Source of the DNA: Geothrix terrae | GTDB lineage: Bacteria > Acidobacteriota > Holophagae > Holophagales > Holophagaceae | DNA length: 64,000 nt | Direction: 5' to 3' | Assembly: GCF_022808775.1 (NCBI RefSeq) | Contig: NZ_JAKZLA010000004.1 | Location: 186,001 to 250,000 of the forward strand | Shown: in pieces, positions 36,050 to 41,232 of the stretch | Numbering within the stretch: the stretch's first letter is position 1 | Layout of the letters: each line of letters starts with the position of its first letter | Notes under the pieces: generated by a model | Seen by the model: the letters and a program-made list of their open reading frames with translations, nothing else | The model's database searches: none | What the model was told of the DNA's origin: nothing | Program-made: the position numbers and the translations under genes

Positions 36050-36127
<78 letters not shown>

Positions 36128-36128
<1 letters not shown>

Positions 36129-36363: not shown

Positions 36364-36389
36364 TCGAGACCGCCCGCGCCAACCAGCCA
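36364..36389 (+). repeat. Direct repeat copy 2 of tRNA-Val 3' end (att-like)
   Basis: 26 nt identical to 36103-36128, exactly 261 bp downstream. The rest of the tRNA is missing here, so this is a fragment, not a gene. It fits an attachment-site remnant left by an integrated element. Confidence 0.8.
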
Positions 36390-36444
36390 GGAAAAGCTCG
36401 AACCCCCTAGGCCGGACTGTTGGTTTCCAAAAGCCACATGGGCC

Positions 36445-36471
36445 TGTAACCTTTCGGCGCCCGGATGCGTG
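36445..36471 (+). promoter_or_regulatory. Candidate ECF41-type promoter of the decarboxylase gene
   Basis: TGTAACC, exactly 16 bases, then CGTG. The known ECF41 promoter is TGTCACA-N16-CGTC. The match is partial, but the position, 130 bp before the decarboxylase gene and next to an ECF41 sigma gene, is right. Tentative. Confidence 0.35.
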
Positions 36472-36602
36472 TCGTCTGTTGAAGGGGCAGCCGAGCAGGA
36501 TCCCCATCCCAAGGACGGGCGGGACCCTGAATGACGCGCCAAACCCACAACAAGCATCCTTCGCGGCTTCTTGCCATGGATGCCAGCAAACAAGGAGAAG
36601 CA

Positions 36603-37082
36603 ATGCAACCTCGACTGGATTACACCAAGGCTTCATCGGGTGCCTTCAAGGCGATGCTGGGCTTGGAAATACACGTGAGCAAATCGGGGCTGGAGCCGTC
36701 GCTGGTCGAGCTCGTCAAGCTGAGGGTCTCCCAGATCAACGGCTGCGCCTTCTGCCTCGACATGCACACCAAGGAACTGAGGGCTTCGGGTGAAACCGAA
36801 CAGCGGCTCTACCTTCTGAGCAGCTGGCGGGAGGCCGCCCTGTACTCCGAACGGGAACGGGCCGGGCTGGCCTGGGCGGAGGTCCTCACGCGCCTCCCGG
36901 AGGGGGGTGTGCCGGATGAGACTTTCGAGCTGGTCCGGAACCATTTCAGCGAGACCCAGTTGGTCGACCTGACTCTGGCCATCGTCTCCATCAATGGTTG
37001 GAACCGGCTGAACATCGGTTTCCGGACTCCGGCCGGGGGCTATGTCGCCCGGTCGGCGGCGGCGCTGCTTGCGGGTGACTAG
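36603..37082 (+). CDS. Carboxymuconolactone decarboxylase/AhpD-family protein
   Basis: A 159-residue protein of the CMD/AhpD fold. The redox motif is CAFCLDMH (two Cys plus downstream His) after a conserved Glu, as in alkylhydroperoxidase-like members. ATG 36603 has GGAG just upstream. The frame is open 24 codons further, but without support. CMD genes are the characteristic partners of ECF41 sigma factors, and the next gene encodes one. A role in peroxide or oxidative stress is likely. Confidence 0.9.
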   Translation: MQPRLDYTKASSGAFKAMLGLEIHVSKSGLEPSLVELVKLRVSQINGCAFCLDMHTKELRASGETEQRLYLLSSWREAALYSERERAGLAWAEVLTRLPEGGVPDETFELVRNHFSETQLVDLTLAIVSINGWNRLNIGFRTPAGGYVARSAAALLAGD

Positions 37083-37299
37083 GCCCGGTTCCTCTGGCTG
37101 ATCGTAGGCGCATCTGGGATGCAATAGCCGGATGGCCAGGTCCTTTGATCTTAGGGATGCCCCCTCCTGAACCAGTGGCCCGGGGGGGGGCAAAGGGCAG
37201 GAAATCACCATGCAAGCCAGATCGCAGACCCAAACCCGGAGTACGGAGGGGCTCCGACGTCGGCGCGTGCGATCCTTTCCCTTCCATGCCGAGGGGACC

Positions 37300-38214
37300 A
37301 TGGACTCCACCGCCCTGGCCGAAGCCTTCGAAGCCCACCGGAAGCTGCTGTGGGGGCTCAGCTACCGCATGACGGGATCCCCCGCCGATGCCGATGACGT
37401 CGTGCAGGAGACCTTCCTTCGCGCGCTCAAGCGTCCACCCGCGGACCAGGAATCTCCCCTTCGCCCCTGGCTGGCGGCCATTGCCGTCAACCTGTCCAAG
37501 GATCTGCTGCGGCGCAGGAAATCGCGGCCCTATCCGGGAGTCTGGCTCCCGGGCCCCGTCGAATGGGAGGCCTCCGACTGCGTGGTCGAGGCGCCCCAGG
37601 AGCATTTCGACCTGTTGGAGACCGGATCCTACTCCTTCCTGGTGGCCCTGGAGGACCTCAGCCCCCAGCAGCGGGCGGTGTTCCTTCTCCGGGAGGTGTT
37701 CGATCATTCCGTGGATGAAACAGCGCAACTCCTGGGCATCTCAGAATCCAACGTGAAGGTGACCCTGCACCGGGCGCGGAAAGTGCTCAAGCGGCCGAGC
37801 TACCCGACAAGCAGGAAGCGGGAGCTCACGGGTCGGGCCCTCCGGCGGTTCCAGGAGGCCTTGGCCGCTCAGGACCTGGAGGCCCTGGAGTCCCTGTTCA
37901 CCCCGGATGCCAAGGCCTGCGGGGATGGGGGCGGGATCTACGCATCTGCCGAGATCCCCATTCTGAGGGCGCGTGCCATCGCCCAGTTCTTCCTGCTCAT
38001 CGCGCGGCAGGATCCCTCCATGCGGCTGCAACTCCGGGAGGTCAACGGATTGCCTGCCCAGGTCGGAGAGAGGGACGTCCCGGAGACCGGGCCGCGGGCC
38101 CCTCGCTGGGTCCTGCTGGTCGAGGTGGACGAAGCAGGGCGCATCTCCTGGGTTCGCTCCGTACTTGCCCCCCAGAAGCTCACACGGATCTCCTGGAAAA
38201 CCTCCAAGGGGTGA
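37300..38214 (+). CDS. ECF41/SigJ-type sigma factor with SnoaL-like C-terminal domain
   Basis: A 304-residue sigma factor. Region 2 contains LSYRMTGSPADADDVVQETFLRA (in part) and region 4 has ETAQLLGISESNVKVTLHRA. A C-terminal SnoaL-like extension (from about 185) contains DGGGIY, matching the DGGGK motif with which ECF41 proteins control themselves without an anti-sigma factor. ATG 37300 follows GAGGGG. It is paired with the decarboxylase upstream, as expected for the group. The 217 bp between them hold no gene. Confidence 0.9.
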   Translation: MDSTALAEAFEAHRKLLWGLSYRMTGSPADADDVVQETFLRALKRPPADQESPLRPWLAAIAVNLSKDLLRRRKSRPYPGVWLPGPVEWEASDCVVEAPQEHFDLLETGSYSFLVALEDLSPQQRAVFLLREVFDHSVDETAQLLGISESNVKVTLHRARKVLKRPSYPTSRKRELTGRALRRFQEALAAQDLEALESLFTPDAKACGDGGGIYASAEIPILRARAIAQFFLLIARQDPSMRLQLREVNGLPAQVGERDVPETGPRAPRWVLLVEVDEAGRISWVRSVLAPQKLTRISWKTSKG

Positions 38215-38291
38215 AGCCGCTCCCACCAGGGCCCTCCTTCACCGGACCGACCAGCCTTTCCAACCGGGGAACCATCCAGAGGAGACCAGCC

Positions 38292-39245
38292 GTGGATCAG
38301 CCATCTCAACTAAGGGAGCGTCTGCTGCTCGGGGAATGCTTCCTGACCGAGGCGGCCGTGGTCGAACGCATGCGCCGGGAGTTCCTGATTCCCGCGGATG
38401 ACCATCTTGTCTATGGGGGATCCATCTACGATGCCCATGCCCGCACGGCTCTGGCCAGCATCTATCGGAGCTATCTCCAGATCGCCCGCAGCGCCTCCTT
38501 GCCGATCCTGATCACGACCTCAACCCGGCGATCGAATCCAGACAGGATCAGCGTCTCCCGTTTCGCGAACCGGAACATCCATCAGGATTGGGTGGCCTTC
38601 CTCCGTGAGATCGCCGCCGATTTCGGGGATTCCACCTACATCGGCTGCCTTCTCGGTACCAAGGGAAACGCCTATCAACCTCAAGAAGCGCTTCCGGAAG
38701 AGGAGGCCTTGTCCTTCCATCGCACCCAATGCCAGGCCTGCCTGGAAGGGGGCGCGGAATTCCTCATGGCTGGCGTGATCCCGTCGCTTAGCGAGGCGAA
38801 AGGGTTGGCCAGGGCCATGGGGGAGACAGGGCTGCCTTTCATCATCAGCTTCATCGTCACGCGGAGGGGCTGTCTCCTCGACGGGACGCCCATCCACGAG
38901 GCCATTGACGCCATCGACGATGCCAGCACGCCACTCTGTTTCATGGTGAACTGCGTCCATCCGGACCATGTCCGCGCCGGCCTATCGGCTGGGGTCAACC
39001 GCAACCGACCCTCGATGAGGCGCCTGATCGGCATCCAGGCGAACGCCTCGACACTGGACCCTGATGAGCTGGATGGCCGTGCAGAGCTTCATTGCGATGG
39101 TTCTGCTTCCCTGAGCGAATCGATGCTGACCCTCCGCCGCGATCATGGATTCCAGATCTTCGGCGGGTGCTGCGGTACCGATGCCACCCTTTTGGAGGAC
39201 CTCGCCGCTCGTCTACACGAGCCCCACCCGCCCTCGAGACCCTGA
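38292..39245 (+). CDS. Homocysteine S-methyltransferase-family protein
   Basis: A 317-residue protein of the betaine/homocysteine methyltransferase fold. Zinc-ligand signatures are NCVHP (single Cys) and GGCCGTD (paired Cys) near the C-terminus. The N-terminal GECFLTEAAVVERMRREF part replaces the usual DGAMGT start, so the substrate may differ. Start GTG 38292 has GAGGAG seven bases upstream. It lies in the same acquired-looking segment as the ECF41 pair. Methionine salvage or another thiol methylation are options. Confidence 0.82.
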   Translation: MDQPSQLRERLLLGECFLTEAAVVERMRREFLIPADDHLVYGGSIYDAHARTALASIYRSYLQIARSASLPILITTSTRRSNPDRISVSRFANRNIHQDWVAFLREIAADFGDSTYIGCLLGTKGNAYQPQEALPEEEALSFHRTQCQACLEGGAEFLMAGVIPSLSEAKGLARAMGETGLPFIISFIVTRRGCLLDGTPIHEAIDAIDDASTPLCFMVNCVHPDHVRAGLSAGVNRNRPSMRRLIGIQANASTLDPDELDGRAELHCDGSASLSESMLTLRRDHGFQIFGGCCGTDATLLEDLAARLHEPHPPSRP

Positions 39246-39412
39246 CGGTCCGGCCCCAGTCGTGGCAGCCCCGAGTCCCGGCCCAATCCATGACCAGCCG
39301 ATCAACCACACGCATGCATATTTCAACACACCGCTCCACCCTCATGCTGAAGTCGGTTTCTGGCGGAGCTGCTTCATCCCTTCTTTCATGCCATCTCTCA
39401 TTGGAGCCTTCC

Positions 39413-39757
39413 ATGCACCCGGTCTCGATCCAGAATGCTGATCACTATGTGTGGGGCGATCAGTGCGATGGTTGGCATCTTCTGAAGGGCGACGATCTCC
39501 ACGTCATCCAGGAGAGGGTCCCGCCGGGAAAGTCCGAGAGGCGGCATGTCCACGCCACCGCACAGCAGTTCTTCTTCATCCTCGCAGGCCAAGCTGTCAT
39601 GGAATTGAATGGTGAGGACCACCAGCTCTCGGCGGGCGAGGGCATCCACATCCCGCGTGGCATGCCCCATCAGTTCAAGAATCCCTTCCGCGATCCCGTC
39701 GAGTTCCTGGTCATCTCCCATCCGACGACCCGCGGGGACCGCACCGATCTGGCCTGA
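39413..39757 (+). CDS. Cupin-domain protein
   Basis: A 114-residue single-domain cupin. Motif 1 includes the His pair in ERRHVHATAQQFFFILAG, and motif 2 includes GEGIHIPRGMPHQFKN. These provide the usual metal-binding histidines and glutamate/glutamine. ATG 39413 has TTGGAG upstream. The frame is open further 5' but without a start signal. Small cupins of this type bind metals or act as sugar or amino-acid modifying enzymes. The role is unknown. Confidence 0.88.
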   Translation: MHPVSIQNADHYVWGDQCDGWHLLKGDDLHVIQERVPPGKSERRHVHATAQQFFFILAGQAVMELNGEDHQLSAGEGIHIPRGMPHQFKNPFRDPVEFLVISHPTTRGDRTDLA

Positions 39758-39851
39758 CCGATCGTTCGCCCCTTCTGCGACATCCGCGAAACACCCCAGT
39801 CCATCTCCAGCAGTACGGGGTAATCCCTGCATTCAGGTCCCGCCGCTCGCC

Positions 39852-39900
39852 TTGACAGGCCTGTCCAAGCCGAGTGAACCTGAAGGAACCGGGTGTTTTC
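39852..39900 (+). promoter_or_regulatory. Promoter region for the trp leader/trpS unit
   Basis: A perfect TTGACA -35 box is at 39852-39857. The sequence 16-18 bp downstream (around TGAACC, 39875) is a poor -10, so the exact start is uncertain. AAGGAA precedes the leader-peptide ATG at 39901. It is the only clear candidate between the cupin gene and the leader. Confidence 0.5.
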
Positions 39901-39972
39901 ATGCATTCCAACCTCTCCCATCGTGCTGACTGGTGGTGGCGCCACCGATGGGCAAGGCGCGTGAACCCCTAG
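39901..39972 (+). CDS. Tryptophan-rich leader peptide of trpS attenuator (23 aa)
   Basis: A 23-codon frame, ATG to TAG, whose peptide includes HRADWWWRHRW. Codons 11, 12, 13 and 17 are TGG. Four Trp codons in 23 are far above chance, and they lie precisely between attenuator segments 1 and 2. The leader peptide is a sensor. Ribosome stalling at the Trp codons when charged tRNA-Trp is scarce changes downstream RNA folding. The product itself probably has no other function. Confidence 0.85.
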   Translation: MHSNLSHRADWWWRHRWARRVNP

Positions 39973-40024
39973 CAATCTGCTAACCGCTCCTCAGGCCCGT
40001 CGGATCGTTCCGGCGGGCTTTTTT
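39917..40024 (+). promoter_or_regulatory. Ribosome-mediated transcription attenuator controlling trpS
   Basis: Four segments are visible. Segment 1 is CCCATCG (39917-39923), segment 2 CCGATGGGC (39945-39953), segment 3 GCCCGTCGG (39995-40003) and segment 4 CCGGCGGGC (40010-40018). Segments 1:2 pair over 7 bp, 2:3 over 9 bp with one G-U, and 3:4 over 9 bp with one G-U, followed by six T. Stalling at the Trp codons covers segment 1 and frees 2 to pair with 3, preventing the 3:4 terminator. This is the classical trp-operon logic, placed here before a tRNA synthetase gene. Confidence 0.88.
39995..40024 (+). terminator. Attenuator terminator (segments 3:4)
   Basis: A 9-bp GC-rich stem with a 6-nt loop, followed by TTTTTT at 40019-40024. 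It ends 22 bp before the trpS ATG, so it can only act on transcripts heading into trpS. Confidence 0.9.
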
Positions 40025-40046
40025 GATTTGGACAAGAGACCATCCC

Positions 40047-41123
40047 ATGACCGCACCCACCACGACCCCTCAAGACACCTTCGAAGCGGCTCGCCTCCGC
40101 AGCGAGGAGCTGGAAAAGAAGGTGCTGGACCACCCGGATCAATTCCGCGTCCTCACTGGAGACCGGCCCACGGGAAGGCTCCATGTCGGGCACCTCTTCG
40201 GCACACTCCAGAATCGGGTTCGGCTGCAGCGGTTGGGTGTCGCCTCCTTCATCGTGATCGCGGACTACCAGGTGCTGACGGATCGGGAGGCTTGCGAAGG
40301 CATCGCCAAGAACGTTCGAGAGCTCACCCTCGATTACCTGGCCGCAGGCTTGGACCCCCACTGCGCCCACACCTTCATCTTCCCCCACAGCCATGTGCCC
40401 GAGCTGAACCAGCTCCTGGTGGTCTTCCTGACGCTCGTCACCAATGCGGAGCTGGATCGGAACCCCACGGTGAAGGAGGAGATCCAGGCCACAGGGGCGA
40501 AGCAGATCAATGCCGGCATGTACACCTATCCCGTGCATCAAGCGGCGGACATCCTCTTCTGCAAGGCCAACCTGGTTCCCGTGGGCAAGGATCAGCTGCC
40601 CCACCTCGAGATGACCCGTACCATCGCCCGGCGCTTCAATGCCCGCTATGGCCCGGTCTTCCCTGAACCACAGGCCTTGTTGAGCGCAGCTCCCCAGATC
40701 AAGGGTCTGGATGGTTCCCTGAAAATGAGCAAGAGCCGGAACAATGCGATCGCCCTGAGCGCCTCCGAGGATGAGACGGCCGCCCTCATCCGGTCCGCCA
40801 CGACCGATGGGAACCGCATCATCACCTACGAACCGGAGACGCGCCCCGAGGTGGCCAATCTGCTCTTGCTGGCGTCCCTCGCCAGCGGGGAAGCCCCCGA
40901 ATCCATCGCGGCCCGCATCGGCGATGGGGGCGCAGGCATGCTCAAACGGATCCTCACAGAGGCCCTCAACGAGCATCTGCGTCCCATGCGGCAGCGAAGA
41001 AAGCTCCTGGAACAGAACCCGGACCACATCCGGAACGTCCTCATGTCAGGGATCGGCCACGCGCGGGAGATGGCCGAGAAGACGCTTTGCGAAGTCCGGA
41101 AGATCATGGACATGGAGCTGTAG
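40047..41123 (+). CDS. trpS: Tryptophan--tRNA ligase, probably an auxiliary copy
   Basis: A 358-residue class I synthetase. The HIGH motif is HVGH (46-49, in RPTGRLHVGHLFG) and KMSKS is intact at 226-230. ATG 40047 is chosen. An in-frame TTG upstream lies inside the terminator T-run. The DRPTG-x-LHVGH form with the following NRVRLQ resembles the auxiliary, often indolmycin-tolerant TrpRS group rather than typical housekeeping TrpRS. Expression is controlled by the Trp-codon attenuator just upstream. It lies in a segment that looks acquired. Confidence 0.93.
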   Translation: MTAPTTTPQDTFEAARLRSEELEKKVLDHPDQFRVLTGDRPTGRLHVGHLFGTLQNRVRLQRLGVASFIVIADYQVLTDREACEGIAKNVRELTLDYLAAGLDPHCAHTFIFPHSHVPELNQLLVVFLTLVTNAELDRNPTVKEEIQATGAKQINAGMYTYPVHQAADILFCKANLVPVGKDQLPHLEMTRTIARRFNARYGPVFPEPQALLSAAPQIKGLDGSLKMSKSRNNAIALSASEDETAALIRSATTDGNRIITYEPETRPEVANLLLLASLASGEAPESIAARIGDGGAGMLKRILTEALNEHLRPMRQRRKLLEQNPDHIRNVLMSGIGHAREMAEKTLCEVRKIMDMEL

Positions 41124-41181
41124 GGGATGAACGCGGTACCACCCCATGGCGCCGGTCGGGAGGGCTCCCAGGCTCCTCTCC

Positions 41182-41208
41182 TTCCGGGCGATCTCGGATC
41201 GCCCGGAA
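41182..41208. terminator. Strong hairpin between convergent trpS and a small gene
   Basis: TTCCGGGCGAT, 5-nt loop, ATCGCCCGGAA. The 11-bp perfect stem lies 58 bp after trpS and 24 bp from the end of the convergent 74-residue gene. There is no long T-run, but the AA/TT ends and position suggest a shared terminator. Confidence 0.65.
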
Positions 41209-41232
41209 GTGCACAGCGGACGCCTGGAGAGG

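Follow-up and report, generated by a model that had tools for sequence, protein, structure and literature searches.

A tryptophanyl-tRNA synthetase gene (trpS) in the window, by which we mean the whole 64-kb stretch of DNA that was analysed, is very likely controlled by a ribosome-mediated transcription attenuator. The attenuator would keep this auxiliary enzyme (TrpRS) off while tRNA-Trp is charged and turn it on when charging fails; the gene, judged from its setting, is a horizontally acquired second copy, and the most likely purpose of the switch is rescue in case the housekeeping TrpRS has been inhibited or overwhelmed. The trpS gene (40047–41123) lies on the forward strand, as do all elements of the leader described below, and encodes a TrpRS II-type enzyme of 358 residues, identified by its profile match (TIGR00233, 243 bits against a curated cut-off of 176.75), its place as second genomic copy and its solved relatives. 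A search of the genome for another trpS, which had been proposed together with the original prediction, returned one of the housekeeping type, 41% identical, with GIQPSG, the usual form of the first motif, and His43; the window gene is auxiliary because this housekeeping-type copy is present.

The leader ORF runs from the ATG at 39901 to the TAG at 39972 and encodes MHSNLSHRADWWWRHRWARRVNP in 23 codons. Four of these are TGG (39931–39933, 39934–39936, 39937–39939 and 39949–39951), and the first three are consecutive (39931–39939), the run of regulating-amino-acid codons in a short leader ORF that marks an attenuator. An AAGGA about 13 nt before the ATG is a weakly placed Shine–Dalgarno sequence. 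TTGACA at 39852–39857 is a candidate −35 box, whose flanking sequence CGCCTTGACA is shared in alignment with the homologous leader of another genome, G738; since a consensus scan found no good −10 box, the leader promoter at 39852 is only likely. Segment 1 (CCCATCG, 39917–39923) pairs over 7 bp with CGATGGG (39946–39952) in segment 2. Segment 2 (CCGATGGGC, 39945–39953) can instead pair with segment 3 (GCCCGTCGG, 39995–40003) over 9 bp with one G–U pair, and segment 3 with segment 4 (CCGGCGGGC, 40010–40018), again over 9 bp with one G–U pair. Segment 4 is followed directly by six T residues (40019–40024), so that 40010–40024 makes up the 3′ arm and T-tract of an intrinsic terminator, with a stem of 12 bp when extended, eight of them G–C. 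The T-tract ends 22 nt before the trpS ATG. As segment 3 pairs with either segment 2 or segment 4, antiterminator and terminator are mutually exclusive. The leader ORF with its four TGG codons, the three pairings in their exclusive order and the six T residues lie where the original prediction had placed them. Its statement that the Trp codons sit between segments 1 and 2 holds for three of them, but the fourth is inside segment 2. The arrangement shares with the trpL-type trp attenuator of E. coli the Trp-rich leader, the exclusive 1:2, 2:3 and 3:4 pairings and the T-tract. It differs in the controlled gene, which is a synthetase gene here and biosynthetic in the trpL type, and in the placing of the Trp codons, three between segments 1 and 2 and one within segment 2. 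It also differs in the leader stop codon, which lies between segments 1 and 2 in E. coli trpL and downstream of segment 2 in the window leader.

From these elements we infer how leader translation, stalling and induction would proceed. With charged tRNA-Trp, the ribosome would read the leader to its stop codon, and either 1:2 would form or segment 2 would be masked; segment 3 would then be free for segment 4, and RNA polymerase would halt before trpS. With uncharged tRNA-Trp, the ribosome would stall at the first Trp codon (39931) and cover segment 1, leaving segment 2 free, so that 2:3 would form ahead of the synthesis of segment 4 and trpS would be transcribed. Fold computations are consistent with this scheme. 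In our stall model, in which the first Trp codon occupies the A site and an assumed footprint covers about 14 nt downstream, the RNA is free from 39946, and with segment 4 not yet made it folds into 2:3 plus inner helices at −23.9 kcal/mol; stalls at the second and third Trp codons give weaker folds (−16.5 and −10.5). With the ribosome at the leader stop codon, the free RNA folds as the terminator (−22.9), and 1:2 forms without a ribosome while segment 3 is not yet made. The original prediction of a trp-type attenuator on a second trpS therefore stands: the housekeeping copy is present, the layout is kept in G738, likewise a genome with two trpS genes, and the segments are spaced so that the switch can work. 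Equilibrium folding favours the terminator even when segment 1 is masked, and therefore the switch must act during transcription. Dependence on folding during transcription is also seen in other known attenuators. The minimum free energy of the leader alone is only mildly unusual (z = −2.1).

The active site of the window enzyme bears on what the switch is for. Relative to Geobacillus TrpRS, whose reference sequence was checked against the PDB, both indolmycin-linked residues are altered (Gln9 to Arg and His43 to Gln), whereas Asp132 and Gln147 are kept; the housekeeping TrpRS of the same genome retains Gln9 and His43. Lys9 in S. coelicolor TrpRS1 was reportedly described by Kitabatake et al. 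in 2002; the window enzyme has Arg at position 9. The changes fit tolerance to a TrpRS inhibitor, and since two residues of indolmycin sensitivity are lost, the switch would most likely serve rescue under TrpRS inhibition or overload. By analogy with Streptomyces, the auxiliary TrpRS is probably inhibitor-tolerant. H43N confers indolmycin resistance (PMC4899734); Arg9 and Gln43 were not found among the resistance substitutions described in the literature examined. Both are common to the whole TrpRS clade, sole copies included (e.g. Treponema and Clostridia), and for that reason they predict tolerance of the window enzyme without showing that tolerance was selected for here.

A possible though somewhat improbable reading accepts the attenuator but gives the enzyme another task, either as a general back-up in starvation or in a special-purpose role like that of Deinococcus TrpRS II. 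The presence of Arg9 and Gln43 in the sole copies of Treponema and Clostridia, where they need not reflect selection for tolerance, agrees with such a task. So do the closest solved structures, which are chains of Deinococcus TrpRS II, an enzyme linked to stress and reviewed for its part in Trp nitration with nitric oxide synthase (PMC9437257). Like the window enzyme, the D. radiodurans enzyme (PDB 1yi8 and 2a4m) has a first motif with GDRPTG and carries Gln in place of His43. However, Deinococcus TrpRS of this type is distant (~42% identical for a Deinococcus plasmid copy), and the clade that holds the window enzyme is tighter; a charging sensor placed on a second copy is easier to reconcile with rescue of charging than with nitration.

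The gene lies in an inserted segment of ~4.8 kb (36390–41231), delimited by comparison of its flanks. The nearest congener (G006) lacks the insert at the same site, with flanks 94–95% identical. The insert stands beside a forward-strand tRNA-Val(gac) gene (36050–36124), an insertion hot spot: 26 bp spanning the 3′ end of the tRNA (36103–36128) are repeated 261 bp downstream, at 36364–36389. Besides the attenuated trpS, the insert carries genes for a carboxymuconolactone decarboxylase (CMD) family protein, an ECF-type sigma factor, a homocysteine S-methyltransferase and a cupin; no integrase was recognised among them. Within 36531–38214, the CMD family gene is followed by the sigma factor gene, whose product has a weak C-terminal SnoaL-like match. 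Other congeners carry different material at the tRNA-Val site, from ~12 kb between copies of the tRNA end in G007 (L195) to almost none in G006 (L193).

The distribution of the gene is patchy. Among the 77 genomes of the family that were searched, window-type trpS occurs in the genome itself, in five of genus g16 and in G738, and it is missing from every other member of its own genus that was sampled; viral contigs held no relative of it. The closest proteins (70–76%) come from G738, Clostridia, a Myxococcales MAG and another genome of the same phylum, followed by those of Treponema and actinobacteria. The original prediction had taken relatives that keep the protein but lack the Trp codons as evidence against it. 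Such relatives exist, literally, in Treponema, Clostridia and some members of the same phylum, but trpS is their only copy, so they say nothing against the control of an auxiliary one. In three loci of genus g16 (L115, L116 and L158) the sole trpS found is of the auxiliary type and lies directly behind a membrane-peptidase-like ORF; here the auxiliary type seems to have taken the place of the housekeeping-type TrpRS.

Across the TrpRS clade, the leader goes with copy number. Counting clade genomes with enough upstream sequence, among which incomplete assemblies may hide second copies, a Trp–Trp leader ORF was found in 36 of 37 second-copy genomes and in 2 of 32 sole-copy genomes (Fisher p = 4.6e-16). 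The exceptions are L134, L112 and L143, and a weak leader call in L129, where the Trp codons open a long ORF, was set aside by hand. Random stretches of the same loci yield Trp–Trp ORFs at a background rate of 7% (two-copy) and 2% (one-copy), and none of 35 housekeeping trpS genes has such a leader. We reject the Fisher value as statistical proof of a copy-number link, since it reduces to some three to five independent contrasts and loses its significance when relatedness is allowed for. The tree holds only four leader changes and five copy changes, and in the three supported independent pairs (five when all branches are taken) the two traits never conflict: they either agree or show no difference (sign test p of 0.5 or more).

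The protein tree places the window enzyme among leaderless sole copies from Clostridia, Spirochaetes and the same phylum, apart from the leader-bearing actinobacteria (starred branch 99). Therefore, the leader was probably gained separately, and the attenuator probably arose independently of its known bacterial counterparts. A fuller account, for which we see the case as evenly balanced, is that the same TrpRS clade, on becoming a spare copy, gained attenuation independently outside actinobacteria: a sole-copy, unattenuated lineage would have entered, by way of the insert, a genome that has a housekeeping TrpRS and would then have gained its own charging sensor, leader and terminator following paralogue status and not ancestry. 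The attenuator might instead have arrived together with its gene from actinobacteria, whose enzymes of the same clade have Trp leaders; in favour of this, almost every second copy in the actinobacteria sampled bears one. Nevertheless, we consider this route unlikely, given the position of the window enzyme in the tree and the similarity of its leader DNA to the actinobacterial leaders, which is mostly background, with one of the 37 scoring 201 where the window background goes no higher than 165.

Attenuation of this kind has a second instance in the genome. Its trpE gene (G000:C1; L187, 1230–1378) has a complete Trp attenuator, with TTGACAGG upstream, a WWW leader MTLSFPTLRQGFLQGAWWWRAGSDGSLCEA, terminator arms CCGAGCCCGACC/GGTCGGGCTTTTT and an antiterminator of at least 8 bp that overlaps the terminator and reaches −33.0 kcal/mol when the ribosome is modelled as stalled. 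Since native trpE has this WWW attenuator, the organism appears to use ribosome-mediated Trp attenuation natively. The trpE and trpS systems are alike in their WWW leader and overlapping antiterminator and terminator, but they differ in gene and leader. Descent of the trpS leader from the trpE leader is unproven: their alignment scores 182 against at most 170 in shuffles, but unrelated actinobacterial Trp leaders reach 201, and the likeness of the two leaders outside their shared working parts does not exceed this baseline.

G738, from another genus of the family, has two trpS genes, one of them housekeeping, and its second copy repeats the layout of the window leader: CGCCTTGACA, a GTG-started leader VNFRLVYCLLGWWCHQGARCARG, and a terminator GCCCGTCG...CGACGGGC with a T-tract. 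Local alignment of the window and G738 leaders scores 262; the highest score in 500 shuffles was 161. The alignment of leaders that the original prediction called for thus bore out its conserved Trp codons in part, the second and third standing at the same positions in G738, but not its compensatory changes: segment 1 is shifted in G738, and we claim no column-wise compensation. What is conserved is layout and not columns. The G738 leader folds into exclusive 1:2 and 2:3 helices, although the contiguous 2:3 helix has only 4 bp, accompanied by further short helices. Leader and switch are thus conserved where the gene keeps its role, in one imperfect replicate whose trpS is split over two contigs of an assembly that is 71% complete, and are missing where trpS is the sole copy.

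We scanned both strands of the 64-kb window for short ORFs with TGG-TGG and a terminator whose 5′ arm pairs with a stretch after the Trp codons that in turn pairs with a stretch before them. Sixteen short TGG-TGG ORFs occur in the window, and only the leader at 39901 has a terminator in range together with the 2:3 and 1:2 pairings. Thirty simulated 64-kb sequences (first-order Markov, 1.9 Mb) held about eight TGG-TGG ORFs each, none with a terminator in range. The scan also recovers the trpE leader of the same genome and misses the leader of G738, whose helices are interrupted. With one full match in 64 kb and none in simulated sequence, a chance origin of the attenuator is rejected. Intrinsic terminators are common after upstream genes and the leader promoter has a weak −10 box, yet it is highly improbable that the hairpin merely ends the upstream cupin operon behind a chance Trp-rich ORF, with trpS expressed from its own promoter or by read-through, since the stem begins ~235 nt past the cupin stop codon and ends ~25 nt before the trpS start codon, G738 again shows Trp codons, alternative pairings and a terminator, and simulated sequence lacks the combination. 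Covariance models detected no Rfam family or T-box in the trpS leader at the gathering score, the best weak match being an unrelated sRNA (E = 0.21).

Comparable systems are known from actinobacteria. Attenuators upstream of trpS have been predicted in Streptomyces (Seliverstov et al., 2005; PMC1262725), and ribosome-mediated attenuation is reported to regulate the gene of an auxiliary, indolmycin-resistant TrpRS in Streptomyces (Vecchione and Sello, 2010, J Bacteriol 192:3565). An indolmycin producer owes its self-resistance to a second TrpRS, as reviewed in PMC6804068. The window system resembles the Streptomyces one in having a second trpS preceded by a small leader ORF that contains Trp codons, in its alternative terminator and antiterminator folds, and in presumably being induced when charging falls. 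It differs in lineage, in the length and sequence of the leader peptide and in the position of the enzyme, which the tree puts in another part of the clade than the leader-bearing actinobacteria. Our literature search found no report of trpS attenuation for the lineage of the window. It is well supported that this is a known kind of switch in a new lineage, with an attenuator origin that is probably independent.

The finding would extend attenuation of auxiliary aminoacyl-tRNA synthetases beyond actinobacteria and, if the DNA is acidobacterial, to a phylum in which, by 2010, hardly any predicted attenuator had been given a function (PMC2965389). It also suggests a simple rule that can be tested: in this TrpRS clade, second copies have the charging sensor and sole copies lack it. 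The Trp–Trp leader might thereby serve as a genome-scale marker of spare, possibly inhibitor-tolerant synthetases, and hence of habitats with natural TrpRS inhibitors.

T-box leaders occur on the minus strand of two Clostridia MAG contigs (L033, 2490–2704; L034, 2004–2218); T-box control of the sole-copy trpS there was rejected, as both lie on the opposite strand and face away from the gene. Actinobacterial loci, L144–L157 among them, have near-identical leaders VKSLVLVWWLPS with no strong intrinsic terminator by the criterion applied, and these leaders may control translation or rely on a weaker terminator.
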